This document shows, piece by piece, positions 1 through 58,951 of a DNA stretch of 60,000 nt. Source of the stretch: Membranipora membranacea (lineage: Eukaryota > Bryozoa > Gymnolaemata > Cheilostomatida > Membraniporidae); contig OU612072.1 of the NCBI GenBank assembly GCA_914767715.1, positions 19,594,001 to 19,654,000 on the forward strand, written 5' to 3'. The notes under the pieces are model-generated. The model saw nothing but the letters and a program-made list of their open reading frames with translations, was not told where the DNA came from and searched no databases. Position numbers and translations under genes: made by a program. The number at the start of each line of letters is the position of its first letter. Within the stretch, counting starts at the first letter, position 1.

Positions 1-471
1 GTGATGCCTCAATATCATGAGTTCAAGGAGAGCGTTGGGAACGAGACGAACAAAACTATCGTCTTAGATAAACAAACACCACCATCAATAGATATCTCTT
101 GTGATTTGTTCGTCAGTTCAGAAGGCTTAGTTTATGAATGGTTTTACAACGGATGGAAACTGAAAGAGAAAAAGGAAACATTACAGATAAATCTAACTAT
201 AACTGATCTAAAAAATGATGATAAATCGGACTGTATAGTGGGTTTTGGTAATAGTGAAACATCTAAGCAATACTCATGGATATTTAGAAGAACCGAGAGT
301 AAACAACTATCATACCTTCCCGTAATTCTGAGATCTGTGGCTGTTGTTGTTGTAGTTGTTGTTATTGCCCTTGTATTGTACTACAAAGGAAAACCACAGG
401 CACAAAGCAAACCAAGAAACACCGTAGCATCAAGAGGCAATCTCTTAGCTATAAATAAACCTCGCACATAA
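1..471 (+). CDS. Last exon of a three-Ig transmembrane receptor-like gene (copy A, 5' end outside window)
   Basis: The reading frame is open at the first base of the window, so this is the 3' part of exon 3 and the upstream exons lie outside. It encodes the third Ig-like domain: ISCDLFVSS with the first cysteine, the tryptophan of EWFYNG, and DKSDC in the F-strand cysteine position. Then come the conserved QYSWIF motif, a valine-rich transmembrane helix (about residues 107-128 here) and a short basic tail ending TAA at 469-471. N-glycosylation sequons are present (NLT). It is the closest relative of the broken copy at 19.9 kb (shared VKTIVL/NKTIVL and KQTPPSI segments). The sequence just after the stop still resembles a longer tail in the same frame. 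The role as a cell-surface receptor is inferred from architecture. Confidence 0.85.
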   Translation: MMPQYHEFKESVGNETNKTIVLDKQTPPSIDISCDLFVSSEGLVYEWFYNGWKLKEKKETLQINLTITDLKNDDKSDCIVGFGNSETSKQYSWIFRRTESKQLSYLPVILRSVAVVVVVVVIALVLYYKGKPQAQSKPRNTVASRGNLLAINKPRT

Positions 472-1078
472 CGAGGCGAAAATGAAGCTGGCTTGAAGCT
501 CATGACATCTGCCGATTAGTCTCACTTCCCGCCACGAAAACAAACTTCCACCATGATGCATCCAGCAGAGATTACAAATTTACCGCTACAGCAGCAGTAT
601 AGTCAAACCCAACAACTGCTACATATGGACTATTAGCGCCTCAACCAAGTGATGTAGTTTAACTATTATCATTTTATGCAGCAACAAGACCTGCAACGCA
701 TTCGGCAACCAATCCAATAGGCAACAACTGGTGACCAAATATCATACCAACCGGGTGGAAAAGAGTAAATGCAGCAAAAGTTGAGCCTTGAGCTCCGACC
801 TTATTGTGCATGTCACTGATAAAAAAGGCCGTGCTAGCGTCAGCCTAATTCTTCCATGTCAGTTTTCGATATGAGCTCATGTAAGGAGGTCAGAAAATGT
901 CACAACTAAATGGACAATTTCCTTTTTCAGACCTCGCTGGTGTCATCATTAAAAACTCTTCATTTTAAAATCAAAAGATATTGTTTGTTTTATGTTTGTT
1001 TTGTTTTTAAAGAGTTCAGGTGTTTAACAAAATATACAGTCATAAATCTCGTTACATCAATAATCCGGCTCAACTATA
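472..1078 (+). repeat. Conserved 3' flank of family copy A (first half), with decayed tail coding sequence
   Basis: This stretch aligns with the downstream flanks of the copies at 14.8 kb (16813-17440) and 19.9 kb. The first 250 bases, read in the frame of the preceding gene, give LMTSAD, then MHPAEITN and LQQQYSQTQQL with interrupting stops. These match the intact tail of the gene at 56 kb (ALSPADQ, MDAADITN, LLQQQYLHDQE). The block ends near 1078, where the alignment jumps to about 3265. Confidence 0.6.
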
Positions 1079-1348
1079 GGTATACACATGTGGCCTGTCT
1101 GCATTGAAATTAACGTTAAGATAATTAATCTATAAGAGTTATGTGTCCTATGTTATGCTTGTGAAAAATCTTGGGAATCCCCAGTAAGTAAGCTCAAAAA
1201 TGTAAACAATGACGTCAGGGAGTTAATTAGTGAAAATACTAGAGTTGAAACTGCAGGCAATCATGACCACAAATTTATGGCCAATCAAGATACTGTCTTG
1301 CTCATCGCCCTATAAATCACAATGTGTCAAACTTCAATCGTCTGAACC

Positions 1349-1664
1349 AGGGGTTCCCAACCTTTTTATTGCGGGGGGTCGCATCTACATATTGCAATGT
1401 CCCTGGGGGACCGCAACCTCACCGTAAATTAAACATTCATATATCGGTGTGCAGTGTTTTCATATCTGTAGTTGGGGATTTATTTATTGGAGCTCACCCA
1501 AATGCAATGGTTTGGGAATTATTATTGTACAAATGAGGAATGTAATAAATATAGGGATGAAAATTGTTTTCACGACAACACAATTTTCTAAGACGAGATG
1601 GGGGCCGTATTAAATTGGGTCGGGGCCGTATGCGGCACCAGGGCCACTCGTTTGGCAGCCCTTA
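1349..1664. mobile_element. Probable hAT-type MITE
   Basis: The left end reads AGGGGTTCCCAACC and the right end is a diverged inverted match (GGCTGCC, reverse complement strand). The element is flanked by TCTGAACC at 1341-1348 and TCTAAACC at 1665-1672, an 8-base target duplication with one mismatch, as expected for hAT elements. There is no transposase open frame, so it is non-autonomous. It sits inside the larger insertion that splits the 3' flank of copy A. Confidence 0.45.
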
Positions 1665-1685
1665 TCTAAACCATCAAATTATGCA

Positions 1686-6540: not shown

Positions 6541-6734
6541 ATACCAGTGCTATTATTTTTCACAGTTTTTTCTGTAAAGCCTTATTTACAAGCTAAGCCA
6601 TTCATATTGAGAGACAATCCAAAACTAAACTCCTTGGCTATATGATACACGACACACCTTCATGGACTGATATCTAATCTATGGTATTCATATTTACTAT
6701 AATTTAGCCCTTGCTCACATAACAAATCCAATAT

Positions 6735-14766: not shown

Positions 14767-16812
14767 ATGAAGCTAGAATTCATGGTCATCAATCTAGTAA
14801 TTTTACTGGGTATCGGAGGAAACAATCGATATGTATGGAGTTACCAGGGGCCTCAAGGAGTAAAATTCACGTACAAACCTTCTACATCTTTTTATGAAGG
14901 GCAACCATTCGAGTAAGTGACAATTCATGCCAGATGCAAAAAAAACTTGATGTTCACGCATTTTGTTTTAGGTCTGTCAAGTTATCTTCAGATAAAAAAA
15001 GGCCTAAGAGCAAAATTTTGTCATGTCAACATATCAGTCAATCCTGGAAGACAGTAAAGTTGGAATCATGTATGTCACTACAAAAGTTGGTATTAATATG
15101 TGTGGTTGCCAAGATTTAGAGCGTAATTTTGCAGAAGAGAGACAACCCCTACATTTTTATCCATACCTTCCATATAGCTCTGATGTTTATATGTCATCTA
15201 CCAATTTGTTCTGCTGTTACTTGCTACTGTCCGTGGCGGTGAAACTTGCATAGATAAACACAATTATTTCTTTGGTTTACTGCCCAACTGATTGAATCTG
15301 AATTCATTACCAGGCTAGAATAAAACTGTGCTCATATGAATCAGGTTATAATATTAATTACATATTAGATATGATATAGTTGATTAGATTTCTGGTATAC
15401 CAATGAATTTTTAAAATTTGTAGGTTCACTTGTGATGCCGGGACAGGTAACAGTACAAGCTATAAGGATGCTTTACCAATAAACAAACCAGAATCAATTT
15501 ACTTAAAATTCTTCAGTAAAGATTCAGGGACATATAAAACGAAAGGTTGTCAGTACAAGGGGGATCCACGAGAAGCTTCAGTTCGAAGTGGACCACAAAT
15601 TTCTCAATGGAACAACCTTACCTCAGATGAGTGCGGGAACAGAGACCAAAAGCTTGATAAAATCACCATAACAGGAAATATCACTAAAGCCATGCAGAGA
15701 GAATATTCAAATTTTAGTTGCATTGCAAACTACAGGATCGTTGGATACAACACATTCAAATATAACAATTATCCCGTAATCAAATATTCCAAACATCAAG
15801 AAACTTTGAACACCATCCCGGATCTGAAGTTAGCTCCACAGAATCTCACATTGAGCCTCAGTGATGTGGTTGAGGAAGGAAAAAGGTTCAACTTTTCGTG
15901 TGAATCTGTTGGAGCAAAACCTAGCTCCAGATACACCTACAGTAAGTTTAAATATTGTGTTAAATTCTAATTTATATGTATGAGACACTTATAATACCAC
16001 CCACTAGTCTAAATATTATGAAGGGAGCCTGTCCACATTAGCTGTTGATTTGGGGAAAGTGACAACCCAATATTGTTTCGAAGCGCCCGAAAACATAACC
16101 TTCGATTTTAAATGTTTTAAGGATGTTTCATGTTATCATTTAGACCCATACTTCAAGGAAATGAAAATAACTAATGTCTTTACAGCAGCAATAAGTATTT
16201 ATCACCAAAAAAAGCCTTGCAATTATGTGATTACGTTGTTTTGTTGCAGAGGTTCAGAGAGTCAGTGGCAAAGTGTTCTTAGACCTTAATGATACTTCCT
16301 ATGAGCCTATCAGACCAGACAGGGAAGGAATTAACATTTCGTGTACCGACAAGACCCATATCAATTTCCCTGGGTCTAAATCGAATATTATCAAATGGAT
16401 GCTTTTGATGCCTCAATATGTTGAGTTCAAGGACAGCATTGGGAAAGAGATAGTAAAAACTATCAGCTTAGAAAAGTCAACTGCACCGCCATTTATTCAT
16501 CTCTCCTGTGATATATTCATTAGCTCAAAAGGCTTAGGTTATGTATGGTATTTTAATGGATTGGAGCTGACAGAGAAAAAGGATAAAGTGGCGATAAATC
16601 TAACTACATCTGATATCAAATATGGAGATAAAGCCGACTGTAAAGTGGGCTTTGCAGGTGGTCAAGCATCTAAGCAATACTCATGGATATTTAGAAAACA
16701 ACTACCATGGCTTCCAATAGTTTTGGGATTGGTGGCTGTTGTTGCTGTTGTAGTTGTTGCTTTTTCCCTTCTATTATTTTACAAATACCACAGCCACCAG
16801 GCGTACCAATAA
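14767..16812 (+). CDS. Three-Ig type I membrane glycoprotein, complete gene (copy B, 408 aa)
   Basis: Exons are 14767-14912, 15424-15941 and 16250-16812. Junctions are GA|GTAAGT..TTTGTAG|G (phase 2) and ACA|GTAAGT..TTGCAG|A (phase 1), giving exactly 409 codons. The start MKLEFMV is chosen over an in-frame ATG at 14716 because it begins the signal peptide and matches the 56 kb paralog. Ig1 (about residues 32-130) carries FTCDAGTG, GCQY, DECGNRD and NFSC. Ig2 runs from FNFSCES (exon 2) to GINISCTD (exon 3). Ig3 has HLSCDIF, VWYFNG and DKADCKV. The transmembrane helix is at about 373-398 and the tail is only about 10 residues (KYHSHQAYQ). There are many N-glycosylation sequons (NLT, NFS, NIT, NIS). 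I do not recognise a named family; a surface receptor or recognition role is inference. Confidence 0.9.
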
Positions 16813-18990: not shown

Positions 18991-19902
18991 CATTTGTAAA
19001 ATGTAGTATTGAAAATTGATAAGCTTTGGTTTTAACAGTATTAGGCTACCTGTAGCACATTATAATTGTACTTTTTGCATTTGGGACATAGGATTATTGT
19101 GCCTCATACATTGATTGAATTGAAAGCATGTTATAGAAGGGGCTTTGTTTAGACAAGGATGTATATCAAAGGCTAAGGTCTATGGTGTTTTGTGCAATCA
19201 TGAGCATACATCAGCCTACTTTTGAAAAATAGATTTACATGTTACACTTTGCTTGTATGCCACTTACAATGATGCAAAACTCGGCACATCTGGACAGCCC
19301 TATTCTAAGCAACCAAAAAGATTTGGAAGAAATCGGACTATCGGAAGTACGTGTGCGATACATTACTTTGTTAGTAACGGCCGCTTTTTATAGATTTCCT
19401 TGAAAAATATCATTTTTTTAAATATTTTGTGGCCCATTGGGTTGATATTGGTTTAATACATAATTATAAGTGGGTTTAATTCACCTATGATAAATAGACT
19501 TCCCTAGAGTGAAATTCAAAGTTTGGTCAGGAGGAGATAATCACCGAATTTAGCCAATAATTTTAATGAACTGAGTGGAGTTCTATTAAAGAGTAATATT
19601 GCCACAAATTCAGTTTCAGCCATCATAATACTTCATCCCTACCTGTGATGATGTTTTTCCCAAAGTCATAATGTCATTGTTTCTTTTAACAGGATGGTGA
19701 ACATTGATGTTTTTTTTTCGGATTATTTAGATCTCAAATGATGTGCTTCTGCTATTATGGCTGACCTTGCAAGCTGAAGTATATATGCCTCTATATGTCT
19801 TTTTGTATTTTACAGCAAAGCAAAATTGTCACAGCTTCGTTATTTGCATGTGCACATTATTTGTAGCGAGATTTTTCTCATATTCATTGCATCGTTGCAG
19901 AC
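18991..19902. other. Gene-free stretch before copy C
   Basis: I looked here for exons 1 and 2 of the broken copy that follows and found no EGQ-F, FTCEAG or KVQR-type sequence on the plus strand. Short open frames only. Confidence 0.4.
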
Positions 19903-20713
19903 ATCCCATATCAATTATCCAGGCTCTAAATCAAATATTATTAAACCGAGACATGTAAGGCCTCAGTACCTTGATTTCAAGGAGAGCGTTGGTAAGGAGA
20001 CCGTCAAAACTATCGTCTTAGAAAAACAAACACCACCATCAATACATATCTCTTGTGATTTATTTGTCAGTTCAGAAGCTTTAGTTTGTGTATGTTTTTT
20101 CAATGGATGAAAGCTGCAAGAGAAAAAGGAAGACTTACAGATAAATCTAACTATAACTGATCTAAAAAATGATGATAAAGCCTACTGTAAAGTGGGTTTT
20201 GGTAATGGTGAAACTTCTAAGCAATAGTCATGGTTATTAAGAAGCACCGAGAGTAAACAACTATCAAGCCTTCCCGTAATATTGGGATCTGTGGCTGTTG
20301 TTGTTGTAGTTGTTGCTATTTCCCTTGTAATGTATTGCAAAGGAAAACTACAGGCACCAAGCATACCAATAAACACTGCAGCATCAAGAGGCAATCCCTT
20401 AGCTACAAATAATTTGCAGATCAGTCTCGCTTCTACCCACCAAACCGAACTCCCACTATGATGCATCCATCAGAGGTTACAAATGCACTCCTACACCAAA
20501 ACTCATGTGGACAGCCTGAGGGGCAAGAGCGAGTCTTTGTCTTTCACACAGATGAGGTTTAACTATCAATATTTTACCCAGCAAGCAAGCAGCCAAACCA
20601 GCAACAAATTCAGCACCCAACCCAATAGCCAACACAGCGACCTAACCAGCAGACAGCTAAGCAACATAATATACAAAAGACCAGGCAGAGGAGAAATTAT
20701 AGCAAAAGCTTGA
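19903..20713 (+). pseudogene. Exon 3 relic of the Ig-receptor family with a tail ORF (copy C)
   Basis: The sequence starts at SHINYPGSKSNIIK, with the first part of exon 3 and all earlier exons missing. It continues through VKTIVLEKQTPPSIHISCDL and the transmembrane valine run. In-frame stops lie at 20108-20110 (after CVCFFNG) and 20225-20227 (TAG in SKQ-SWL). Copy A is the nearest relative. A separate open frame at 20483-20713 (76 codons) reads LRGKSESLSFTQMRFNYQYF and a Q/N/S-rich stretch ending EIIAKA. It aligns with the tail frame of the minus-strand relic at 34698-34510 and looks like the ancestral C-terminal tail. Confidence 0.85.
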
Positions 20714-25745: not shown

Positions 25746-25862
25746 GTTCACTTGAAAGGCTTGGCAATGGTACAAGTTATGAAAACGCTTTACCGTCAAA
25801 CATACCCATATCAATATAGCTAAAACTAGAAATGGATGTAAGTATTATTTAATGGATGTAAT

Positions 25863-25899
<37 letters not shown>

Positions 25900-26372
25900 G
25901 TTACTAGTGATATAAAAGTCTGCACATCATAGAAATATTATCTTTTGAAGAAAACGGAGTTTAAAAATTTTACACATTGTGCTCTAAGGCATTGTCTCCG
26001 TAGCTCTATCCTACATTTGATATTACAGTAGCGCCCTGATGGAAGCGTAGCTAGGGCTTATATTGGCTCATTGTCTGTTGCATACATACGAAGACAACGG
26101 TTCTTAAAAACACTGGTAAAAACCTCGGAGATTGGCCATAAACTACTACAGTTGATGTTGGACTTCCCATTCCACAGTGGAACTCCCTGAGTCAGAGTCA
26201 AAAACCCTGAAAAATTATGGTAACAGGAAACACAACACAGTTCATGCAACGTAAATATTCAAATTTCTCGCCTATGGCATACTACAATGTCATAAATAAT
26301 AGAATTAAATTATCCAAAGAGAGAAATATCACAATCCCGGAACTGGAAGCAGCACCTCCTGACATTATGTCA
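25746..26372 (+). pseudogene. Exon 2 relic of the Ig-receptor family (copy K)
   Basis: After a good acceptor (TTTCTAG|GTTCACTTG) the expected FTCEAGTG start is broken by a stop (TTCACTTGA). One base out of frame it reads LGNGTSYENALPSN. Then come a (TA)n run at about 25866-25895 and unrelated sequence. The second half of exon 2 resumes near 26190: KIMVTGNTTQFMQRKYSNFS, with the expected cysteine replaced (FSPMAYYN). It continues to TIPELEAAPPDI at about 26370. No exon 1 or exon 3 is seen nearby. Confidence 0.8.
25866..25895. repeat. (TA)n microsatellite
   Basis: About 15 TA dinucleotides sit between the two halves of the broken exon 2 of copy K. Confidence 0.9.
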
Positions 26373-28204
26373 TATGGTAACATTAATTATAATGACTTAA
26401 TCAGCACCAGAATAAAAATGGAAAATATATAACTTTATATCGTATGAGTTTGAACTGTTAGGTACCCTTACTACATTCCGTATTACACAAGCTGATAATT
26501 CATCAATTTTAAATTCCATCAAACTATGTTGCAACTTCCTTTGCAGAGGTGTATAATCTTTGGTGTTATTTTCAATCCTGATCAGAAAAGAGTCAGCGAT
26601 GTATTTTATGTATCATTATCAGATGTATTTGTATTTGACGATCACTTTGATGCTTTGTTTACTACGTAATACACCATCATCATATCGTTATATTTTCTTG
26701 GCTATTTATGCCGAGCAGAGGCACTTTATTTGCTGTTAATCTCCTTGCAAATTACATCTAGTGATTTTCTTAACCTTTGATGATATGAGCCAGAATGTCA
26801 ACATTACAAAATGAACACAAAATGTAAAATTTAAAATCTAGATTCAAAGCCATTATGTTAGCATTCTGATATGGTCTCCACATCAATCAGGCCTTACTCA
26901 TGACGCAGAGAAAAGGCTGTATCAATCACCTGTCGGCGGCCTGTGCTCAATGAGATTAAAAGCCAAAGCAGATAGGATTGTGCACTACTTCGTGTGGACT
27001 GGAGAAACATAACATAAGGGGTAATAACTGCCATCGGAGTCAGTTAGGGTGGATGAGTTGGGTGATTTGTTGACTGTGGCACAAAGAGTTTTGAGCCTCT
27101 GCTGTAGGTCATAGGCTATGTTCCTTGACCCCAAACCTTTTACCTCAAACCATTACTCAAAATAATCAGCTCTAATCTCAATATTCTCATCGAAAATTTT
27201 TCAGTTTTGAACCCCAAACACTAATTTGTTTCAACATTTTATCTTGTCCCCTAAACCTCAGTAATTTTATTTAAAGCCTGATTCCTAATCTTGAATATAA
27301 TTATTCTGCTAAGTTCTTGCAACGCATCATACCTATTAAATCGAAAATGTTAATATCATTTGAATGATGAAACCAGCAAGGTCTTAAAAAATAACTGCCA
27401 ACATAGTTATGAAAATTTCGCACAGCTACTTATATGAGCCAAAACCGAAAACTGACATGAAAAAATTTGGCTGGTACTAACAGGACTGTTCATACAATTG
27501 ACGTGTGCAATACGATTCAGATTGAGGGCGTTGTTGTTAATGTAAAGATTTAGTCAGTTCGGCAGTAAACAAAAAAGAAATGATTGTGTTCATCTATGCA
27601 AGATCCACGGCCATGGACAGTTACAAGAAACAGCCATAAAAAATTGTCGATGATATATTTCACTGCTTTAACTGGAAACGCAACAACTTAGCCCCAGCCA
27701 AACTTAGCCCGAGCAAAACTTAGCCAGAACGAAAACTCAGCCCGAGCCAAAACTTTAACTGCACAAAATTCAAAGATACAAAGATAAATGTTTCATAAAC
27801 CATGTCCACCGTATTTGTTGGAGCGTTTCAGGAAATTTCACTAAGTCAATCTAAGAGATTAGTTTAAATTGCACCCTTCAACAAATAATCTTTTGGACAA
27901 TATTATCGTGTCCTGTTATATCATATTACCTTTAATCTTGTGTGCCACTAAGGCTGTCAGTTTATTCAAAATTCATTCTTCCAAACATTATTATTCACAG
28001 ACAACATGATAATAGTCATTCTGTCAATATACTATTTATGTATTTTTTTTCTCTTTATTTTCAGGGCTAATATTGTAAAATGAAAATTATGCAAATAAAG
28101 TATTAAATATAAGTATCAACACCAGAGCGATGTGAAAGAACATATAATATGTTGCAATATAATCAAATCACTGTTGTGGGAGGACATTCAGGTATGGATA
28201 AAAA
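26373..28204. other. Gene-free stretch with a short tandem repeat
   Basis: At 27684-27756 there are four imperfect units of about 18 bases (AACTTAGCCCGAGC-like). No coding sequence is recognised in the rest. Confidence 0.4.
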
Positions 28205-28263
28205 ATGTTTCCTCCGATACACAGTAAGAATGCTAGACTGATGACCATGAATTCTAGTTCCAT
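28205..28263 (-). pseudogene. Orphan exon 1 relic of the Ig-receptor family (copy L)
   Basis: On the minus strand, ATG at 28263-28261 opens MELEFMVISLAFLLCIGGN, almost the signal peptide of the 14.8 kb gene (MKLEFMVINLVILLGIGGN). The match stops after the GGN codons and the expected FVWSY strand is absent. The upstream sequence (28264-28498) matches that gene's promoter and 5' UTR, including KKSFTF-type codons before the start. No exon 2 or 3 follows on this strand, so the fragment is a broken or displaced 5' end. Confidence 0.75.
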
Positions 28264-31225: not shown

Positions 31226-33133
31226 TTACAAATCGGAGGGAATTCTGTATTGCTTCAAGAGAAGAGATCGGTCAGCCTGAGTCAAGGGTGTTTGGGGTGG
31301 ATTTCTGTTTCGGAGATGTTTTCTTTTTAAAGTCGGATTCCCTTTTGGTGGATTATGTATGTTATATGTTGCGGGTAAAATTAAAACAACCAGAATAATT
31401 ATGCCAACAGAAGCCACTGTTTCCAGAATCAGTGGAAGCCACGGAAGTTCATAGCTTCTAAACAACCAAGAGTAATGCTTAGTTGATTGACCAACATCGA
31501 ATCTCACCTTACAGTCAACCTTATCATTATTTTTAAGGCTAGATACATTGACAGTTATTTTCACTTTATCTTTTTGATCTATTTGATCCACTCCATTGAT
31601 GAACCATGAACGGCCTAACCCTGGTGAGCTCACGAAAACATCACAAGAGAGCTCAATTGAAGGTGACTTTATCGTTGCCAAGTCAACAGTTTTCACTGCC
31701 TCTTTCCCAAAGCTAGCTTGGTAATCAATGTACTGAGGTCTGATGTGCTTCCATCCCACGATATTTGATTTAGATCCGGGAAAGTTGATATGGGACTCAT
31801 CGGTACATGAAATGTTGATTCCAGCCCTGTCTTGTGCATTAGGTTCATAGAATGGTATTTCCAGGTCTGACAACACATTATCTATGTCTCTTTGAACTTC
31901 TGCAAGAAAATAAAAAAATTAAGAAAATATATGCGGCTGGTGCAAATACTGCATTTGTTAAGCTGATGGTTTGTTGGGAAAGGCCACACAGAGAACCTGT
32001 AAACAGGCTTTTATATTTCAAGATTGGCTTTTGAGGTATTAAACAGAAGCAGTCATATAATAATTGCAAATTCTGGTTGATGTAATCAGAGATATGTTAC
32101 CAGTTTCTCACTGTGTATTTGTAGAAGTCCGTTTCAATACGTTGTGCTTTTCGGTTTCTTCCAAACTTAATGAGTGACAAAGTGCTTCCCAGTAACTGAT
32201 AGATTTTAACTATCATACACTTACTGTAGGTGTAGCTGGAGTTTGGTATGGCTCCAACGGATTCACAGGAGAAGCTGAACCTTTGTCCCTCCTCCACAAC
32301 ACTGCTAAGATTCAATGTAAGATTCTTAGGTGCGACTTTAAGATCCGGGAACGACTCAAGCGTATTGTTGCAGAATGTAAATTTGTCATTTCCATCATCT
32401 TCACGATATATTGCATAACACGAGAAGTTTGAAAAGTTTTTCTGCTTAAATTCTGTGATATTTCCTGTGACTATTAATGTATCAAGTTTGTGGTCTCTCT
32501 CGCCGCAGTCTTTATCAGTAAGACGATCCCATCGATGATCCTGATTTCCATAAGGCTCACCGTATCCAAGTTCGTATAGGCATATTACAGTGCTCGGCTT
32601 TTCCTGATTCTTTTCTTTGTAAAATAGGCCTAGTATATATGGTTTGTTTGATGGTATAGCAGTCTCATAACTTGTACCGATGCCAGTCCCAGCCTCACAA
32701 GTGAACCTGTGGATAGTAAATATTGTAATGTTGGCATTGGTGTATGACAACTACTGCTGGAGGTGTGTTGGTCATGAGTCTAATATGCTTGTATTCAAGG
32801 CTTCTCAATAAACAAGATAGTTATCATTTTTGATTGATCAACCAGTCAAATAATGAACTTGATTTTTTAAAGGAAATTGATAGTATTGCATTTCACTTTC
32901 ATTGACCCGGCCAACAAAAACTCGAAATTGCAGTGAACTTGTTGGATAACATATCAATTACGCATTACTCACTGAATCTTCTGTCCTTCATAGAGATTAG
33001 TTATAGCAGGACTGTAAGTCAATCTAACTCCTCGAGGACCTTTATAACTCCAGACAAACTGGTCCCATCCCCCAATACACAGAAAAAGTATCACACTGAT
33101 CAAAGAAGCGCTTTTTAATTCCATCTCTTTCAT
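31226..33133 (-). CDS. Three-Ig type I membrane glycoprotein, complete gene (copy D, 438 aa)
   Basis: Exons on the minus strand are 33133-32973, 32706-32225 and 31899-31226, giving 439 codons exactly. Donors are CA|GTGAGT and ACA|GTAAGT; acceptors are CCACAG|G and TTGCAG|A. The protein starts MKEMELKSASLISVILFL (signal peptide; a second in-frame Met is at codon 4). It continues FVWSYKGPRGVRLTYSP, then Ig1 with RFTCEAGTG, WDRLTDKDCGERDHKLD and NFSC; Ig2 from FSFSCES to GINISCTD; Ig3 with ELSCDVFVSS, SWFINGVDQ and DKVDCKV. The transmembrane helix is at about 366-391 and the tail of about 47 residues ends YRIPSDL. It has many N-glycosylation sequons. No known symbol is assigned. A recognition receptor role is inferred from architecture and clustering. 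Confidence 0.9.
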
Positions 33134-34509: not shown

Positions 34510-35725
34510 TTATGCTGGATTTGCTCTTCTTTGCGAGGTTGGTTGTATATTATGTCGCTGGGTTGTCTGCTGGTTGGGTGTTGCCTTTTGGGTTGGTTGC
34601 CAAATTTGATGCAGGTCTTGTTGCTGGATGAAATAATGATTGTTAATCTTCATCTGTGTGAAAGACAAAGACTCTGCCTTGCCCTTCAGACTACCCATGT
34701 GACATTTGGTTAAGGCGTTGATCTTCCATGTGTCGCAGCTGTTGGTTATGATTGGTTATGATACTCATCAGCAGGTGTCATGGCCTTCAAGCCAGTTCTA
34801 TTTTCACGTCTCTGTGCGCACTGTTCCACTGTAGCTAAGGGATTGCCTCATGATGCTACAGTGTTCCTTGGTACGAGCTTCTTGCCAGGGTTTTCATTTG
34901 TAACACAATATGAGGTAAACTGCAACAATTGCAATGACAACAGGCAAACATCAGAATGCTATGGGAAGCCATGGTAGTTGTTCACTCTCGGCTCTTCTAA
35001 ATATCCACGAGTACTGGTTAGATATTTCACTATCACCATAGCCCACGTTACAGTGGGCCTTATCATCTAGTTTTAGTTCAGATGTAGTTAGATATATTTG
35101 CATTTTATCCTTTGCCACTGTCGCAATCCCAATGCTGTCCTTGAACTGAAGATACTGATGCATCACATGCATCCATATTATAATATTTGATCTGATCAAG
35201 GCACAGAATAGTTGATATTGGACTGTTTAATACATGTTATGTTGATTCCGTCGCTGTCATATCTGGTCGGTACATGGGAAGTGTCATCGAGGTCTGACAA
35301 CAGAGTATCAGTCCCTCTTTGAACTTCTACAACAAATCAGTAAACCATCAAAGACTTTCAGTCACACTTGTGGTTAGTGCATCTATATCTTTTTTTTTCT
35401 AACCTATTAAGGCAGAAGGACACTTTTTATATCAGATATTTGGAGTAGGAATTCATAGTGCCGGCAATAGATACAGATAGTAGTTAAGATAAGAAAACAT
35501 TATCTGACAGCGCTGGTTATTTGTGAATATATCAGAATAACCACCACTTTAACTAACAGACTAGCGGATGTTATTTCTGTTACCTTCATTGATAAACATT
35601 CAACACTTTCCAACTTATTGTATCTGTATCTGGAGTTGGGTTTGGCTCTGATAGAGTCACAGGAGAAGTTGATCTGCTTTCCTTCTACGACCACACCATC
35701 AAGAGTCAATGTAAGATTCTGTTTT
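34510..35725 (-). pseudogene. Relic of an Ig-receptor gene with preserved tail frame (copy F)
   Basis: From the 5' end: the last part of exon 2 (about 35725-35605: KQNLTLTLDGVVVEGKQINF, SCDSIRAKPNSRYRYNK); exon 3 from about 35330 (VQRGTDTLLSDLDDTSHVPT, DGINITC); then a frameshift near 35205. The Ig3 region is internally deleted, with DSIGIATV joined directly to AKDKMQIYLTTSELKLDDKA. QYSWIFRRAES and LPWLPIAF precede a stop at the transmembrane segment. Past more stops, frame 34698-34510 reads LKGKAESLSFTQMKINNHYF, then IQQQDLHQIWQPTQKATPNQ, and ends ANPA. It matches the tail frame of copy C. No exon 1 or 5' half of exon 2 was found. Confidence 0.85.
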
Positions 35726-41015: not shown

Positions 41016-42797
41016 TTACACACCAGAGCGATTTCTCCTCTTCTTCTGGCGTCTGGATCGGCCACCAGGGTCAGTTCTCTGTTCACCTCTATGTTTATTG
41101 AATTTATTACCGACTGTCAGATTATCTTTTGGAGTTACAGTGTTCTGTGGTTTATGTTTGGTATACGCTACAGGTGACATTAAACAACCAGTGCTATTAT
41201 ACAAATAAAAGCCATTGCTTCCAAAATCAGTGGAAGCCATGGTAGTTCATATCTTCTGAACAACCAAGAGTGGATGTTTGACCAACATCAAAACTCACCT
41301 TGCAGTCAACCTTATCATTGTTTTTGAGGGTAGATACATTGAGAGCTATTTTCACTTTATCCTTTTGATCTATTTGATTCACTCCATTGATGAACCATGC
41401 ACGGCCTAACCCTGATGAACATAATAACATCGCCAGAGAGCTTGATTAAAGGTGATTTTATTGTTGCCACGTCAACAGTTTTGACTGCCGCCTCCCCGAT
41501 GCTGCGCTTGAACCCAATGTACTGAGGTCTGATATGCTTCGATCGGATAATATTTGATTTAGTTCCGGGGAAGTTGATATGGGCTTCATCAGTACATGAA
41601 ATGCTTATTCCGGCTCTGTCTTGTGCGTTAGGTACATAGAATGCATCTTCCAGGTCTGATGACACACTGTCCAGTTCTCTTTGAACCTCTGTAAGTAAAC
41701 AATATGTCACATAATTCAATTAGGCTGGCTCAAATACTCAATATTTAAGGCCATTGGTTTGATGGAAAACACTACAAAAATAACTGTAGACAAGCTTTTA
41801 AACCATCATGTAGGTCCATGTTGATAAAAAAAAGAAGCATTCTCATTTCCATGTAATTGAGACCCTTTTTAGCTTACTGTAGGAGTAGCTGGACCTAGGT
41901 TTGCCTCCAACTGACTCACACGAGAAGTTGAACCTTTTACCTTCCTCTACCACTTCACTTAGAGTCAAAGTAAGGTTCTGTGGCGCTACTTTGAGTTTTG
42001 GGATCGAGGAAAGTCGATCTTCAGATTCTTTAATTATTGGAGCGTCGTTGCTTTGAAAATCTCTGTAGAATGCTCTACATAAGAATTTTGAATAATCGCT
42101 CTGCAAGTCTTGCGTGATATTTCCTGTTACGATGATTTTATCAAGTCTTCGATCTCCATTTATGCAGTTGTCATCTGTTAATCGAATCCAAGGATCATTA
42201 AATTTCCCAAAGACCTCAGATTCTTTAAAGTCATAGGTACATATTAATCCATCTTCACTCTTGTTTGTAGTGTAGATGAGGCCCATTCCTAATGGTTTGT
42301 TTGGTGGTGTAGCAGTCTCATAACTTGTACCGATGCCAGTCCCGGCCTCACAAGTGAACCTTTGAATAGAAGGTTGATATTGATATTTTGGTTCTGGTGT
42401 ATGGAATTAACTGTGGTTCGTCCGCCGCACTGATATTGGCCACTGAGTAACGATCACAAAACTTTGCAATCATCAAGGTACTGGCCATAAGTGATGATTG
42501 TTTCAATTTCAGTTCGAGATGGGAAAACAATCATATAGCTGCGCATGTCACTGTGATTGATCCTGCGAAGGCCAGCTTGACAAACTCAGAAAATGACTTA
42601 ATGACAAGTTCTTTGAAAACAATGTTATAAAGTTTTACTCACCGAATCTGTTGGCCTATGTAGAAGTTATTAATAGATGGACTGAATGAGAATCTAGCTC
42701 CTTTAGGCCCTTCATAACTCTTGACAAATTGGTTGATTCCACTGAGTGAAAGTATTAAACTGAAGCAAGATGCGATGTTGAATTTCAGTTCACTCAT
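41016..42797 (-). pseudogene. Ig-receptor gene with intact exons 1-2 and broken exon 3 (copy H)
   Basis: Exon 1 is 42797-42643 (MSELKFNIASCFSLILSLSG, then FVKSYEGPKGARFSFSP, EQ-type end YIGQQIR). Exon 2 is 42359-41878, open throughout (RFTCEAGTGIGTSYETA, NCINGDRRLD, NFSCESVGGKPRSSYSYS). Its acceptor is a weak AAAG. Exon 3 starts at 41688 (KVQRELDSVSSDLEDAFYVP). A net 2-base loss near 41435 breaks Ig3 and its cysteine is changed (KLSGDV). A 7-base loss near 41275 removes the YSW region and together these restore the frame. A third 1-base loss near 41180 causes a stop right after the transmembrane helix (IIALVV). Tail-like sequence continues in another frame to 41016. Closest relative is copy D. 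Confidence 0.85.
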
Positions 42798-42859
42798 CCC
42801 TTTTTTCGGTCGTATACTTAATTGATCGCTTCAAACAAGTTACAATTATAAAATCATGA

Positions 42860-44106: not shown

Positions 44107-46110
44107 TCATGTAAAGTATCTTTTATTGATATGGTTAGGTCGGCTGAACATAACAGCGGGGATTTTTGTCATGTACCTGGAGTTGAGGTTGTTCAGAGGG
44201 TTGTACATGGGGGATCTTTTCACCTCTTGTTTAAGATTTTGATTTACATGAATTGTTCGATTGCCTACGGGTTCTACAGTGATGTGCCCATGTGCCTTTT
44301 TTCTGCTGTATAAAAAGGATGAAAATAAAAAAACTAGAACAATAAAACCAACAAAGATCGCTGCCCCATAAGTCAGGGGAATCAAACGCTGTAGTTCACC
44401 ACATTGAAATAACCATGAATATTGCTTGAATGTATGACCAGTAATGAGGCTCCCTCGACAGTCAACTTTGTCATCCTGTTTTAGTAAAGACACGTTGAGA
44501 GAAATTTCCCTTTTATCTTGCTGATCCTTCATATTCATTCCATTGAATTATTATGCACGGCCTAACTCTGATGAGCTTACAAATACATCACACGTGAGCA
44601 CAATTGAAGGCGTTTCCACTAAGACCAAGTCAAATGAACTGAGATTTCACATGTATCCTTTTGACAATATATGACTCAGGCCCGGGATAATCGATGTGGG
44701 ACATTTCAATACATGAAATGATGATTCCTTCCCTTTTTTGCCTGGTCGGTATGTATGGAGTTTCCTTTATGTATGTGTTTCTTTGAACCTTTGCAACAAG
44801 ACAATAAATCAAAGTCCCTAGTGTCGCTGGTGTAAAAACTGGGCTCTTCTAACATTTGAAGGAACAATGAATTCACGTTGTCACCCTGTAAAAATCAAAT
44901 TCAACAGCTCTTCACTTTATGTTTCCTCATGATTACTTTCAAATTGAGTAAGTTCAAATATTATTACCTGTAATTGAAAGATCGAACTCTGGTACGCTTA
45001 CTGACAGATTTACATGAGAAGTAGACCATTATTCCTTCCTCAACAACATCATTTAAAGTTAATGTAAGACCCTGTGGTGCTTCTTTAAGTTCTGGGATTA
45101 TGTCAAGTTGGTGTTCAGAATATTTAACTGTACTTTTGACGTCATTATCCTTGTACGTAACACGACATGTGAAATTTGAAAAGTCTCTTTGCAGTACCTT
45201 GGTAACATTTCCGGTTATGATTAATTCATTGTATTTTTTCTCCCTTACTCCACAGTCGATGGTTGGTAAGGGGTTCCACCTAGCACCTTCCCAAACAGGG
45301 AATTGTCTTGGTGGGTTGATAGAGCATAGGCATGCTACTGATGCCTGTACTTTTTTTCCGTCCCATTATATCTTAGGGAGCCTAGAATGATTGTCCTCGG
45401 TTTGTTTGATGGTAAAGTATCCCTAAGATTTGTACCAATGTTAGTCCCAGCCTCAAATGCGAACCTGCAAATCGAAGAAAAAGAAAGTGATACCATGGCG
45501 TTGGTGAATATTGTTATATTTTATTGTTGATTAAAAATGATTGATTAAAATCAGGTGGTGATATCAAACTCCACATCTTGATGTATGGGCGATGAGATAT
45601 TTGTTGCTATATGTCTTCAATTTCTGATTCCAGGTTGCTCTCTTTTTGAAGGCTCGTCGGAGCACACTTGTTCTGGAAGCCAACCAAGCCGGAGTATTTG
45701 CTAAACTGCAGTGTTGATTCAAACTCACTAATTTCAACATTTGCATGCTGTAAGACCGGCACTCTAACCAACTGAGCAATCACCAATGTGGTCATTTTTA
45801 AGTTAGTAACTTGAGCTTGTTCTTTACATTGGAAAAAGCTCATAGCCATGAACTTCTGTGTGAAATTCACAGTTGAGATTGAAAAATCACAAAATGACCA
45901 GACTGTGATGATTGTTTTTTAACATTATATTATAAGCCTTATTCACCTGAACTGTTGTCCTTCATAGAGATTGGTATTAGATGGACTGTATGTGAATCTG
46001 ACTCCACGAGGCCCTTCGTAGCACCAGACGAATGGGTTCCTTTCTCCAATACAGAGTGAAACTAGTAAACAGATGAAAGTAGGCCTGTCGACGCCCAGAA
46101 GTTCCATCAT
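44107..46110 (-). pseudogene. Full-length but disabled Ig-receptor gene (copy E)
   Basis: Exon 1 is 46110-45947 (MMELLGVDRPTFICLLVSLC, FVWCYEGPRGVRFTYSP, LYEGQQF; an in-frame ATG also lies at 46125) with donor AG|GTGAAT. Exon 2 is 45464-44968: the first Ig1 cysteine is lost (RFAFEAGTN), a frameshift lies in an A-run near 45352, and the 3' end is one base longer (TACAG|GTAATA). Exon 3 starts near 44788; its acceptor AG is altered (TTGCAAAGG). A deletion removes part of Ig3 (KSQFI then a stop). Stops TAATAA at about 44551-44546 replace the conserved tryptophan. The rest is open from 44538 to 44107 with QYSWLFQCGEL, a transmembrane helix and a tail of about 70 residues. With this many lesions the copy should be non-functional. 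Confidence 0.9.
45565..45786 (-). mobile_element. tRNA-derived SINE (family 1), inside intron 1 of copy E
   Basis: Minus strand head: TTGCTCAGTTGGTTAGAGTG as A box and GTGAGTTTGAATCAACACTG as B box. The body has GTGTGCTCCGACGAGCC and GAGAGCAA, matching the element at 54024-54252. It is more diverged than that copy. Confidence 0.65.
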
Positions 46111-46125
46111 CCGTTTTTCACTCAT

Positions 46126-46989
46126 ATGTTAACACATAACATTTCAGTTTGAACAGGCTAAACCAGATAAAAGTCACTCAGCAATGCAGAAACAGCTACT
46201 ACTTCTACTTAGCCTTTCTTGAATACTTTAAATACCTTTGGTGATTCATGGCAGAACAGTAATTTCATTGTTTACCTTGTGGGTAATTAATAGCTTCAAG
46301 TTCTCTCATCAGCAGCTGCATGAAAGCAATATGCCAACCTGTCTTAACTAGCAATCAAGGAGGTGACATCTTTTACGAACTCTCACAAGTAACCACTTAG
46401 ATTACCCAGTTTTATCTGTGTGTCATGTCATGATCCGAACCTTAGTATTCATGATGACATCAACATTTGTCCAGCTGGTAACCTTCTCAAAAATCAGCAG
46501 AATTTAGTCTTACTTTTCTGTACATTCAGCATACCCAAAGACTTTCTTGATATCTGGATTGTCAGTCTTTAGAGATAGTCTTTATTGGTTGTTCTAGCAT
46601 ATTGAACGCAGGATCTGAGAGGAAGTCAAGGCCATGTAGCCATGTTGTAGATAGTGGCGAGACAAGGGAAACACAGAGAGATACTATAGGTGCTGGATTT
46701 TCATTAGTAGAAATTCAACGCTAAATTGTTCTGTAGATGAGGAGTCTTTGCGTGTTTGCACATCTCACGTCTTGTCCTGTCCTGAAAATTTAGCTTTTGT
46801 GTGGCCTCGGACAATCTTTTGATTTTCCACTTAGACAATGTTGAGAGATTTGAGCGAACGATTAACAAGCACATGCGTTAGTGGCTTGGAGCCTCAACAC
46901 TATGCGCTGTATGCCAGTTCAATTACTCTCTCACTGCCTATGCAATCTCTTCCAGAAGAGTACAAAGCATCAATTGAGAGAATGGATAT
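46126..46989. other. Spacer upstream of copy E
   Basis: A faint variant of the family promoter box (TGTTCTGCCATGAATC on the minus strand, 46260-46245) lies about 140 bases before the copy E start. The frame at 46838-47104 (+) is not a recognised gene and its 3' part runs into LINE sequence. Confidence 0.35.
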
Positions 46990-48717: not shown

Positions 48718-49390
48718 GTTCACATGTGAGGCTGGTACAGGGGAAGGTACTGATTATGAAGACGCTCTACCATCAAACAAACCACATATAATCGCCCTGG
48801 TCTACTTCAGAAATGCTGGAGCAGAGAAAGAGAAACAGTTTTTAGGATGCCAATACTCTGGGAATCCACAAGCCGTCGGAGTATCTACAGGCAGCCTTGA
48901 CTGGGACCAATTCAGCACTGAGGACTGCAGCAACAGAGACAAGATAATCATAAAGGGAAATATCACACAAGTCATGCAAGATAGATATTCAAATTATGCG
49001 TGTGAGACAGTTTATAAGGATGGTGGGGAATATATAAAAAAGAACTCGACATTTGAAATCGACGCAATCCCAGAACTCAATGTAGCACCACAGAACTTTA
49101 CATTAACTCTCAGTGATGTGGTTGTGGAGGGAACACAGTTCAATTTCTCGTGTGAATCGGTCAGAGCTGTACCTAACTCAAGCTACATCGATCGTACGTT
49201 AATCCAAGATGTATTTTTTCTAGGACATGCGATAATATTTATGCAATTCCCAATACTTATCCAGTCATTAACAATGACACAAATTTTATATCTGTCAATA
49301 TCTGCTAATGTTGATATATATTTGGGTAGGAACAGTGGCAATGTTTCTTATCATAACATTTCAATACATTTAGCAAGGTCTTTTGCTTTC

Positions 49391-49448
<58 letters not shown>

Positions 49449-50387
49449 CAAAAAAAACAATTTACTGCCAGTTCACATTTTTTTGTAATTTTCATAAGCA
49501 AATCAGCATTTTAACTTCACCGGTAGTTGCACAAACTCAACCGAATGTTTGTGAAATAAATTGTTTCTTTACAGATTTGCATGTTTTTTACTATGTAATT
49601 ATATTAAAAGACAACATCTCAACTAATGTTCATTGACCGAAACATTTGATAACCTGAATATACATTTCTAATAGTGAGCCTTGGCTCCATCTCTTGGTTC
49701 CAAAAGTTAAATTGCAATTTCTGCAAGCGCAACTGAAAGTGTTTGATTTGTTTTTTCGTTACAGAGTTGCAGAGAAACGCTGACCTGTCATCGAAAGATC
49801 TTGAAGACACTTCCTACATAACAAACAGGCAAGACAGGGCAGGAATCAACATTTCATGTACAGACATTTCACATACGAACTTCCCCGGGTCTAAATCAAA
49901 TATTACAAAATGGATTAATGTGATACCTGAGTACATTGATTTCAAGGACAGCTTTGGAAAGGAGACAGTTAAAACTGTTGACTTGTCAACCATAGAAACT
50001 TCTTCCATCGAGCTCTCTTGTGATGTATTCGTAAGCTCATCCAAACCAAGCCGGGTATGGTATCTCAATGGGTTGGAATTTAAAGATCAAAGGGATAAAC
50101 GGAAAATGTCTACCGATGTATCTATCCTCAAAAACGATGATAAAGTAGACTGTCGAGCGACTTCTGATACCGGTTTTTCATCAAAGCAATACTCTTGGTT
50201 ATTTGAAAATCATTCAACATGGATTTATGTGGTTTTTGGACTAGTTGGTTTTCTAGGACTAATCATTCTAGTCCTTGTAATTTTACGTGTTTTGTATAAA
50301 CAAAAAGCACAGGGACAACACTCTGTAGAACCACTAGGCGATCCAATAGTTCTCAAATCACGTAAAACGCGTAAACCTAGGCGTTAA
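48718..50387 (+). CDS. Three-Ig type I membrane glycoprotein, exons 2 and 3 intact, exon 1 not found (copy J)
   Basis: Exon 2 is 48718-49193 (acceptor TTTGTAG|G; donor C|GTACGT instead of the family's A|GTAAGT). Exon 3 is 49765-50387 (acceptor TTACAG|A). Phases fit the family. Ig1: RFTCEAGTGEGTDYEDALPS, GCQYSGNP, DCSNRD, YACE. Ig2: FNFSCES to GINISCTD. Ig3: ELSCDVFVSS, VWYLNGLEF and DKVDCRAT. QYSWLF, a transmembrane helix (about 50220-50290) and a basic tail ending KPRR follow. No signal-peptide exon is seen between 46.2 and 48.7 kb, which is filled with LINE pieces. The gene may be 5'-truncated or have exon 1 elsewhere. Intron 2 holds a (CTTG)n run. After the stop, the same frame reads VTPSDQPQLYVLDANFTDAQ, a relic of the longer tail. 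Confidence 0.8.
49391..49448. repeat. (CTTG)n microsatellite in intron 2 of copy J
   Basis: About 14 uninterrupted tetranucleotide units, likely polymorphic. Confidence 0.95.
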
Positions 50388-55852: not shown

Positions 55853-56025
55853 TTGCAGCTGTTAATCATAACTTGATGTTATCAAGTATCCACAAGTCAA
55901 ACAATTGATAGCCTTAATATGTACTGTTGTGACATGACTGTATGCCCTGAGATGAAGTACTAGTAATATAGTTCAGTTGTTTACCAAAACATGTACTACT
56001 TGCCTGGCTTACTTTATCTGATTTA
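55853..56025 (+). promoter_or_regulatory. Conserved proximal promoter / 5' UTR block of the 56 kb gene
   Basis: In order: GCAGCTGTTAATCA, AGTCAAACAATTGA, TGTTGTGACATGAC (55925-55938, about 145 before ATG), GCCCTGAGA, and CTACTTGCCTGGC (55996-56008, about 75 before ATG). The same elements precede the 14.8 kb gene and the orphan exon at 28.2 kb. No TATA box is apparent. Confidence 0.5.
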
Positions 56026-56077
56026 ATCGAATTGGAAGAGAACATTCATCTTTTCAATAATCGGCACAAAGCAGACT

Positions 56078-58951
56078 ATGAAGCTAGCATTCAGTGTCGC
56101 CACTTTCATCAGTTTAGTACTTTTACTGAGTATGGAAGGAAGCAACCACTATGTTTGGACTTACCAGGGGCCTCGAGGAGTAAGATTCACGTACCATCCT
56201 TCTTATGATAATTTCTATGAAGGGCAACGATTCGAGTAAGTAACAATCAACACATAGGAAAACAAGTCAACTTTCATAATAATTCATGCATGTTGTGTCA
56301 GCTCTGGCAGTTGTCATCCAATATTAGAAGGCGCATTCTATCCTGTCGATATATTAGTCAACAGCAGTAAAAATGAAGTACAGATTTATTTACAAATAAA
56401 ACAGTTCGCAGGCTCTGGTAAAAAATAAAATTGAATATCAAAAGAATTTAGTAGCACCATCAAGGAAGTAATAACCATAGACCTTTCCGTCAGTAGTAAT
56501 CATGCCTTGTGGCCAAATTTTACATCTGAGTCAGATCAAATTCAATAACCAGTGTTCATGCAGAATTCAGTTTCAAATCAGATGACCTGAGTATATGAAC
56601 AGGATTGTCATTATAGACAATGATTTAAAGATCAAACAAATTGAAGCTAGTTTCGTTTGATATGTTGCAGGTTCATTTGTGAAGCAGGTACTGGCACTGG
56701 TACAAATTATGAAAATGCTCTTGAACAAAACAAACCAAAAAGGATTACCTTCGCTGCAATCAAAGACAGTTTTGGAAAATTCTCTATAGGATGTTATTAC
56801 AATGGGGATCCTCAAGACACGGTTGTCTTAGGTAACTCGCCTAGAGATTTCCATCGGGACGTTTTAACAGAGGAAAAATGCGGTAACAGAGACAGTAAAC
56901 TTGAGCAAGTCATCATTACAGGCAATATAACGCAGAGCATGCAGAGCAAGTATTCTAATTTCTCCTGTGAAGTTGTGTATGAGACTCAAACTGAGAAAGC
57001 AGAAGAACAACTCGACACAATACCAGCTCTCAAAGTAGCACCACAGAATCTTACAATTACTCTCAGCAGTGATTTGGTTAAGGAAGGAGAGCAATTCAAC
57101 TTCTCCTGCAAATCTGTCGGAGGCAAACCCAGCTCTAGCTACACCTACAGTAAGTTATTGAAAGTTCAATTTTCTTGATGGCAGTAAACAAAATAATGTT
57201 CACTGGTTTTTAACTCTTTCACTCCTGCCCATTGTTAATGTTAATTAGTGGTCGGATACTAGGCGTTTTTCCAAAAAATGCCTAAGTTTACATAGACATT
57301 TCTTTGTAACCAGTTGTGCTATCCACAATCTGTTAAAATATTTGAATTCTCCAGCTCTTTATCTGTTAGGATTTAAATTCTTGTATGCATTGGACAATGC
57401 ATGTATACATACTGCCCATTGACCTAGGGGAGGAATAAAGCATTTGTGATTTCTGAAGTTTTATTTTCAAACTCACTTTATGACATTTAGCCACAGTACA
57501 GATCGCCCAATAGAGTGTCTGAGTTGGATTTATATGCACAGATGTGTTGGTTATTGATTTGCGATATATGATCTTATGAACCATAAAAAGTTTCTCTGTC
57601 TGGCCCCATACCTGTAAAACGAGGCTGGTGATTTGGAAAGTATTGACAACGAAACAGGGTTTACTGACAATCACCTTAAAATAGATTACGATTGTACGAC
57701 AGAGTGTACTTCTGTATTTATCACTGAGATACCCAATTGAAATTAGACAGTTTCCAGGCTGTTCGCTAAAAGTTGGGATACTGTTTAACACATGCAGCAT
57801 CGAAGACAAGTGTTAAAATAGCTATATCTACAGATCTATGGCAGCATGTCAAAAAAACTCTTTCAGATTCTGCATATGTGCCATTGCCAGTCTTAGTCTG
57901 GAAAACTGTCTGAAAAGAATGGTTTTAGTCTTATCTTATATCTTTGTATGAACAATTACTATGCCAGTCACAAATTCAACTGAAATGTTTTGTTACAGAG
58001 GTTCAAAGGAACAGTGACAACCTGCTGTCAGAGCTCGAAGATCATTTCTACGTACCAAACAAACAAGACAGGGAAGGAATCAACATCTCATGTACCGACC
58101 AGTCCCACATCAATTATCCTGGGCCTAATACAAATATTATCAAATGGATACATAGGATGCCTCAGTACCTTGAGTTCAAGAGCGGTTTTGAGAACAAGAG
58201 GGAAAAAACTGTTGAATTTTCACCAACACAAGAACTGACATTCAATCTCTCTTGTGATGTATTCCAGAGCTCATCAGGCTTACACCGTACTTGGATTTAT
58301 AACGGTGTGGATCTCGGAGTTGATAAGGATGAAGTGAATGCAACTATAAGAGTTCCAAACATTAAACAAGATGATAAAGTAGTTTGTAAAGCCAGTTTCG
58401 ATTCTGGTCATACCACTGAAGAGTACTCCTGGATATTTAAAAGAACAGGCAGTGAACTACCATGGATTCCTCTGGTTTCGGGGTCAGTTGCACTTATTGC
58501 TGTTGTTATTTTGGCAATCGTCATTGTTTTGTATTGCAAACGAAACAAACAAAACAGAACAGGAAACAGAGAATTACCAAGAGGCAATCAGTCATTTAAA
58601 AGTAAATCACGTACACAACAAGGAACAAGGAGAACTGGCGTCAATGCATTGTCGCCCGCTGACCAACCAAACCAGATGGATGCAGCAGATATCACAAATC
58701 AACTGCTACAACAGCAGTACCTTCATGACCAGGAACGACAACGTCTACGAGATGAACTGGAAGCCAAGGAGCAAATTCTGAATGCTGCACAGCAGCGGGG
58801 CAGAGAACTGGAGATATTTAGACAGCAACATCAACAGAAGGAAGCAGAAAACGCCTTTCAAATTGATGACAACTATACTGTCTTTATTACCGATCTTGCA
58901 AAAGAGCAACCATCTAAGCAGAAGAGAGTAAGAAAAAAATTAATAAATTGA
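56078..58951 (+). CDS. Three-Ig type I membrane glycoprotein with long Q-rich coiled-coil tail, complete gene (copy G, 529 aa)
   Basis: Exons are 56078-56235, 56671-57149 and 57999-58951, giving 530 codons exactly. Junctions are GA|GTAAGT..TTGCAG|G and ACA|GTAAGT..TTACAG|A. Signal peptide MKLAFSVATFISLVLLLS, then YVWTYQGPRGVRFTYHPS and EGQRFE. Ig1: RFICEAGTGTGTNYENALEQ, GCYYNGDP, EEKCGNRDSKLE and NFSC. Ig2: FNFSCKS to GINISCTD. Ig3: NLSCDVFQSS, RTWIYNGVDL and DKVVCKAS. The transmembrane helix is at about 366-391. The tail of about 138 residues has RGNQSF, ALSPADQPNQMDAADITN, then LLQQQYLHDQERQRLRDELE and further E/Q/R-rich sequence with heptad character, ending in basic RVRKKLIN. Other family members have tails of about 10 to 70 residues. 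The tail suggests intracellular oligomerisation or adaptor binding (inference). Poly(A) signals lie at 58977 and 59217. Confidence 0.92.

Follow-up and report, generated by a model that had tools for sequence, protein, structure and literature searches.

Among the described recognition systems of colonial animals, the one nearest in organization to the locus considered here is the allorecognition complex (ARC) of Hydractinia symbiolongicarpus, whose Alr family is described as clustered single-pass genes of the immunoglobulin (Ig) superfamily (IgSF) with many pseudogenes and a variable extracellular region (PMC11876637, PMC11067881); a similar complex is reported for Podocoryna (PMC13119343). 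For the fuhc locus of Botryllus schlosseri, the fester co-receptors (FcoRs) are described as combining a V-type Ig domain, two C2-type Ig domains, a tail, a sushi domain and tyrosine motifs (PMC12065747). In bryozoans, colony fusion has been reported, perhaps only between closely related individuals (PMC11686985), the Bugula genome paper mentions sequences with weak similarity to Alr1 only (PMC7576161), and the portions of the open-licence literature on bryozoan and Membranipora recognition that were searched named no bryozoan gene or locus for allorecognition; a term search of the Flustra genome paper (PMC13326412) found the words immunoglobulin, allorecognition and immune absent. Here, we addressed a dense cluster of Ig-type receptor genes in the encrusting, colonial cheilostome bryozoan Membranipora membranacea, starting from a 60,000-nucleotide stretch of chromosome 8 (C8:19594001-19654000, hereafter the window) in an assembly of 339,339,785 bases and 18 contigs, where chromosome 8 (C8) accounts for 27,174,903 and chromosome 5 (C5) for 29,963,023 bases.

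With three spliced proteins as tblastn queries, 11 separate copies were detected in the window at E <= 1e-3, and a relaxed search (E <= 0.5, six queries) added a weak exon-1 relic with a best E of 0.002, so that all twelve copies or fragments of one family listed in the initial annotation were recovered (Table 1). Chance likeness is excluded, since between-copy matches reach E 1e-58 in open exons; for pseudogene read-through they reach 4e-86. Three genes are complete, with GT-AG borders and uninterrupted frames, at 14.8 kb (G14), 33.1 kb (G33), and 56.1 kb (G56), and their products have the lengths originally claimed, 408, 438 and 529 amino acids (aa), respectively; tail-like sequence with stops runs on past the stop codon of G14. 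The copy at 48.7 kb (G48) is indeed deprived of exon 1 only, as its exons 2 and 3 are intact and no exon 1 was found upstream of exon 2 even by the relaxed search at E <= 0.5. The copy cut by the window edge continues upstream, its exons 1-2 lying at C8:19592473-19593236, and it is a pseudogene because exon 2 carries stops. Of what had been counted as seven relics, two (41.2-42.8 kb, P42, and 44.1-46.1 kb, P46) are three-exon pseudogenes and not fragments.

The window represents a part of a larger array. Genome-wide search with the 438-aa protein (64 of 64 candidates scored) returned 62 exon matches, 59 of them on C8 (19.443-19.744 Mb) and three weak ones on C5 at 11.188-11.227 Mb, and the cluster spans ~300 kb of C8, from 19,443,001 to 19,744,234. 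Detailed reading covered 264 kb (19,390,001-19,654,000) and 14 kb (19,732,001-19,746,000) of this chromosome; for the stretch outside it, C8:19,654,001-19,732,000, the genome-wide search gave no family match. Totally, 26 copies are found on C8, comprising 14 loci with three exons, a single gene with two and 11 relics, packed densely in mixed orientation with many pseudogenes among them, and 8 of the 14 three-exon loci (M1, U3, U5, U6, G14, G33, G56, and R1) are intact with a transmembrane (TM) segment. An exon from C5 used as a query found 17 places, solely on C5 and C8. The region C5:11187301-11227800 contains distant relatives with the Ig1/Ig2 signatures of the family, two copies being 36% alike, and by these signatures is a small sister locus on another chromosome.

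Exon 1 encodes a hydrophobic start, judged by eye to be a signal peptide, followed by the initial strands of Ig1, exon 2 covers the remainder of Ig1 and half of Ig2, and exon 3 provides the remainder of Ig2, Ig3, one TM helix and a tail. This layout, initially ascribed to all members, holds for the complete copies and fails for the relics, and the splitting of Ig2 between exons 2 and 3 is borne out. According to the structure models, the proteins would consist of a V-like Ig1 (low confidence), a split Ig2, an I-set-like Ig3, a single TM helix and a variable tail; Ig folds, as anticipated, were thus returned by prediction, with fair support for the I-set-like Ig3 and weak support for the V-like Ig1. 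Membrane anchoring is supported by the helix at 156-184 in the model of G56 exon 3 and by the exon 3 sequences, 9 of 13 of which contain a hydrophobic 21-mer while the remaining four are truncated. Tails differ in length, those of G56, R1 and M1 being long and glutamine-rich, with a long helix predicted in G56. The family was not recognized by the initial annotation, which is borne out: in the six proteins of the cluster that were scanned, Pfam Ig models stay under their cut-offs (E up to 10 in one scan, up to 1 in the other), no lectin, chitin-binding, other pathogen-binding or sushi domain was found in these six, and word-based searches of 5.77 billion proteins with exon-length profiles gave four matches. 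In sequence searches of PDB the matches were weak: the whole 529-aa protein matched neuroplastin at a best E of 0.024, exon 3 matched neuroplastin and Kit (E 3e-5 to 5e-3), and exon 2 gave no match under E 0.2. Nectins, CD200R, Sidekick and Dscam, the adhesion receptors with V- or I-set domains, are similar in the fold of Ig1 (V-like, weak) and Ig3 (I-set-like) and differ in that sequence identity is low, 6-24% among the matches listed; membership in this group is not claimed.

The way in which the family changes is seen best in five units with genes U1-U5, which are pairwise 98.1-98.8% alike over 7.7 kb around the gene; for U1, U2, U3 and U5, blastn aligns pieces as long as 19 kb at 97-98%. 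The sequences of the cluster demonstrate duplication of large units, gene and kilobases of flank together, and many copies are broken. Of the five genes, U3 and U5 remain intact and encode 434 aa, the reading frame of U1 and U2 terminates early in exon 3, and a stop interrupts the same exon in U4. Among the five, nucleotide diversity (pi) reaches 0.027 in exon 2, against 0.012 for exon 1, 0.005 for exon 3, 0.017 and 0.011 for the introns and ~0.015 for the flanks, so that the expected excess of exon 2 over exon 3 is present among recent copies of one genome. The top 100-column window, 0.066, falls into exon 2, two non-coding windows reaching 0.048-0.052. Variation of exon 2 is concentrated in codons 20-77 (174 bp, the Ig1 core, delimited after the variable codons had been seen), where 24 of 174 sites vary versus 134 of 3,680 in non-coding sequence (p 9e-8), and this core is the most variable 174 bp in 7.65 kb of ungapped shared columns: none of 6,819 overlapping windows of the same size outside exon 2 exceeds 17 variable sites. 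The scan stopped at column 7,800, a bound set once a jump of variable sites had been noticed beyond it, where the ends are non-homologous. Changes in the core, counted per nucleotide, include 20 replacement and 5 silent ones compared with 3 and 6 in other coding sequence (3 and 2 in the rest of exon 2, 0 and 4 in exon 1); in exon 3, the first 80 codons contain one stop and no other change. In these five copies, variation is loaded on the membrane-distal Ig1, with few changes in exon 1, Ig2 and Ig3. When the 21 varying residues are placed on the exon 2 model, 18 lie in the segment from the loop preceding strand C to the turns that follow C'', eight of them on strands C, C' and C'' and ten in loops and short helices, and the other three fall in a U-specific stretch after strand F; with a model of low confidence, this strand placement is tentative.

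V-type domains usually bind their partners by the face of strands C, C', C'' and the following loops, and Membranipora colonies react to conspecific neighbours. The outermost domain being the most variable between recent copies is the pattern expected of a self/non-self recognition locus. We therefore propose, leaning slightly towards this reading as a whole, that the cluster encodes a lineage-specific, germline-diversified family of single-pass IgSF receptors serving recognition. Ig1 would bind partner proteins on opposing cells, perhaps each other, while Ig2, Ig3 and the TM segment would hold it off the membrane and be kept as a scaffold; a variable binding face on a conserved scaffold would correspond to the design of germline recognition systems. 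Since the tails differ in length and have no ITIM/ITAM-type motifs (immunoreceptor tyrosine-based inhibition or activation motifs), signalling would proceed via adhesion itself, tail-bound adaptors or co-receptors, and the long glutamine-rich tails of G56, R1 and M1, with a predicted helix in G56 and no tyrosine motifs, suggest that a partner protein may carry the signal. With copies being generated as large units and many of them decaying, repertoires would differ from one individual to the next. Some form of recognition appears probable. A colonial host meets neighbours at its growing edge, which makes contact recognition between colonies the first use to consider, and allorecognition, in which own colony or kin is told from unrelated colonies at contact, is the leading candidate use, proposed tentatively and with a chance somewhat short of even. 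A bryozoan histocompatibility complex in the full sense, that is, a polygenic, haplotype-variable Ig cluster in which colonies fuse with or reject each other according to their V-like Ig1 alleles and which came about independently of the systems of Hydractinia and Botryllus, the genes on chromosome 5 being its less duplicated relatives, is a bolder and rather doubtful extension.

Several observations weigh against the recognition reading. Ig1 varies also in U1, U2 and U4, whose exon 3 is broken and which have no TM segment. Silent changes in the Ig1 core affect 5 of 39 sites, more than in non-coding sequence (p 0.014); a local hotspot, or gene conversion by other copies, may thus account for part of the peak and could produce it without selection. 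A clean excess of replacement over silent substitution rates (dN > dS) in the core is not claimed on the same grounds: the ratio of 18:1 per variable codon became 20:5 per nucleotide, with silent changes raised. In a set of nine deeper sequences, no domain has a median pairwise dN/dS as high as 1 (exon 1 0.34, Ig1 0.43, Ig2 0.23, Ig3 0.38, TM plus tail 0.68), and dN exceeds dS in 1 of 35 unsaturated Ig1 pairs. Site models, run as home-made code without gene conversion (with bounds for Ig3), support a small class with omega > 1 in exon 2 (13 sequences, p 0.022) and none in Ig2 or Ig3, and for Ig1 only the signal of M2a is weak (eight sequences, p 0.053). The AlphaFold model of G56 exon 2, with the exon 1 strands missing, is of low confidence (mean predicted local distance difference test score 61), and Foldseek found no match of the Ig1 model at E <= 0.001, ependymin-related proteins ranking first with low probability. 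ITIM/ITAM-type, hemITAM and YxxI/L/V motifs were found in none of nine tails.

If the proteins were innate immune or symbiont-recognition receptors, with variable Ig1 binding microbial or parasite ligands and diversity maintained by host-pathogen conflict and not by self/non-self choice between colonies, then tandem copies, pseudogenes and a variable outer domain would arise equally, and the TM-less U1, U2 and U4 could yield secreted Ig1-Ig2 forms; population-level diversity of Ig-type immune molecules is described for the VCBPs of amphioxus (PMC13428168). We consider such a role less likely, yet deserving serious attention, given that Pfam scans of the six proteins contained no lectin, chitin-binding or other pathogen-binding domain and the nine tails no immune signalling motif. 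An adhesion-type family undergoing birth and death at or near neutrality in a region rich in repeats, with gene conversion making the peak and no recognition role at all, would agree with the raised silent sites, the many broken copies, the overall dN/dS below 1 and the mobile-element frames and 334-bp satellite array adjoining the cluster. It is clearly less probable, as the peak sits on the coding sequence of one domain at a height unreached by the windows outside exon 2, replacement changes are absent, bar the stop, from exon 1 and from the opening 80 codons of exon 3, and eight intact genes have been kept.

Gamete or larval kin recognition, that is, mate or settlement choice via the same variable receptors, would leave an identical genomic signature, and kin recognition is reported for larvae of Bugula neritina (PMC11686985); we give it little credence. 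Least probable of all is that the five ~98%-alike units are an assembly artefact such as a second haplotype placed in tandem. The assembly is described as not fully phased, and equally as a HiFi and Hi-C product curated for haplotypic duplication (PMC10290214); the sole gap of N letters in the fetched sequence (19,436,434-19,436,633) follows directly after the satellite, outside the U array, and the units number five rather than two and differ in their exon 3 ends. The observations on this DNA are confirmed and extended, and the proposal of an allorecognition or innate recognition locus, in line with Ig folds, anchoring, the dense mixed cluster, pseudogenes and a colonial host, stands as plausible, unproven.

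If it is a recognition locus at all, the family may be likened to the Hydractinia and Botryllus systems, with no claim of membership in either. It shares with the Hydractinia ARC the clustering of single-pass IgSF genes with many pseudogenes on one chromosome of a colonial animal and, with variation here seen between copies, a variable extracellular region, and it differs in belonging to another phylum and in being known from one genome sequence, whereas fusion control, homophilic binding and allelic polymorphism are described for the ARC. With fester and the fester co-receptors of Botryllus it has in common multigene Ig-type TM receptors of near domain order in a colonial animal; the sushi model is unmatched in the six bryozoan proteins, and ITIM, hemITAM and YxxI/L/V are missing from the nine tails. 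The VCBPs of amphioxus similarly display germline diversity in Ig-like domains (PMC13428168) and carry a chitin-binding module, unmatched in the six proteins, which, unlike them, have a TM segment.

The four database matches, P0001-P0004 (two for exon 2, two for exon 3), probably come from M. membranacea or a sister species; the spliced 438-aa protein had no match at E <= 1 in protein search, and viral contigs contained no relatives of exon 2. P0002, P0003 and P0004 are near-copies of loci in this genome: P0002 matches R1 at 155 of 159 positions, into the R1 intron, two of the four differences being tryptophan (W) versus TGA, P0003 agrees with the 4.9-kb relic at 96 of 99, and P0004 with the copy at 1-471 at 70 of 76. 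P0001 is of the U type. Compared with U1, it differs in 23 of 158 exon 2 residues, with four missing, and has R for S at the codon across the exon 2 end, while the 28 flanking intron codons match, 26 outright and two as W versus TGA; this contrast hints at strong allelic or haplotype variation in exon 2. P0001 and P0002 have W at all four TGA intron codons checked, which may reflect a different code table or a changed base; at the source, genes were perhaps predicted on animal contigs under a code that reads TGA as W.

Exchange of exons between older copies was also considered. In the identity tables, G48 is nearest to M1 in exon 2 and to G33 in exon 3. Exon shuffling of this gene is nonetheless not supported: exon 3 rejects the pairing with M1 (approximately unbiased test, p-AU 1.5e-4), but exon 2 fails to reject that with G33 (p 0.21). 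The M1+G14+U3+U6 clade of exon 3 is likewise compatible with exon 2 (p 0.28).

Table 1. Copies of the receptor family in the window, numbered from its first nucleotide.
Feature	Position	Strand	Basis
Exon 3 (Ig3, TM, short tail) of edge-cut copy, pseudogene	1..471	+	tblastn, reading upstream
Relic, exon 3 only, closest to G33; near-identical database homologue P0003	4809..5484	+	tblastn
G14 exon 1 (signal peptide by eye, first Ig1 strands)	14767..14912	+	spliced model
G14 exon 2 (Ig1, first half of Ig2)	15424..15941	+	spliced model
G14 exon 3 (second half of Ig2, Ig3, TM, ~10-aa tail)	16250..16812	+	spliced model
Relic, exon 3, in-frame stops	19880..20559	+	tblastn
Relic, exon 2 fragments with stops	25763..26420	+	tblastn
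Weak relic, exon 1 fragment, best E 0.002	28174..28263	-	relaxed search
G33 exon 3 (protein total 438 aa)	31226..31899	-	spliced model
G33 exon 2	32225..32706	-	spliced model
G33 exon 1	32973..33133	-	spliced model
Relic, pieces of exons 2 and 3	34649..35721	-	tblastn
P42, three-exon pseudogene, exon 2 open, exon 3 broken	41177..42806	-	tblastn
P46, three-exon pseudogene, match split into frames, stops	44146..46128	-	tblastn
G48 exon 2, intact	48718..49193	+	tblastn
G48 exon 3, intact	49765..50387	+	tblastn
G56 exon 1	56078..56235	+	spliced model
G56 exon 2 (Ig1, first half of Ig2)	56671..57149	+	spliced model; AlphaFold model
G56 exon 2, part aligned to the variable Ig1 core of recent copies (strands C, C', C'', following loops)	56726..56899	+	
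G56 exon 3 (Ig3, TM helix, 140-aa tail with predicted long helix)	57999..58951	+	spliced model, structure model

The surroundings of the genes are rich in repeats. A 334-bp tandem satellite extends over tens of kb next to the cluster (C8:19394908-19436433), one sampled stretch being filled over its whole length by 29.9 copies with 93% matches. In the window, an open reading frame (ORF) on the plus strand at 1614-2549 matches the RVT_1 reverse transcriptase of Pfam (E 9e-29), and among the listed ORFs more pieces that by eye are of this kind occur around 6.7 and 8.4-9.2 kb. Between M1 and the U array, at C8:19452634-19458427, there are long ORFs of 500, 852, 212 and 406 aa, which by eye look like a retroelement with an integrase. 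ORFs with a repeating GGK/WEN-like peptide pattern at 6258-6581 and 12858-13172 of the window are perhaps a degenerate short-period repeat common to both places. The window ends in tRNA-like sequence (59938-60000, GGTAGCTCAGTTGGTTAGAGCG), which is a tRNA truncated at the edge or else a short interspersed nuclear element of tRNA origin; ARAGORN proposed a single odd candidate in the window, at 54015-54107, and Rfam gave no match at gathering scores. Elsewhere, Ig_3 matches are densely arrayed over G000:C4:20267985-20378421, where open frames reach 974 aa; this may be a muscle gene of titin-like type.

With a candidate now mapped and bounded in a chromosome-level genome, bryozoan allorecognition becomes testable at one locus. 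If the proposal is true, Membranipora would provide a further, probably independent case of Ig receptors in allorecognition; if the family is an immune one instead, it would still represent an undescribed expanded receptor family of a little-studied phylum.

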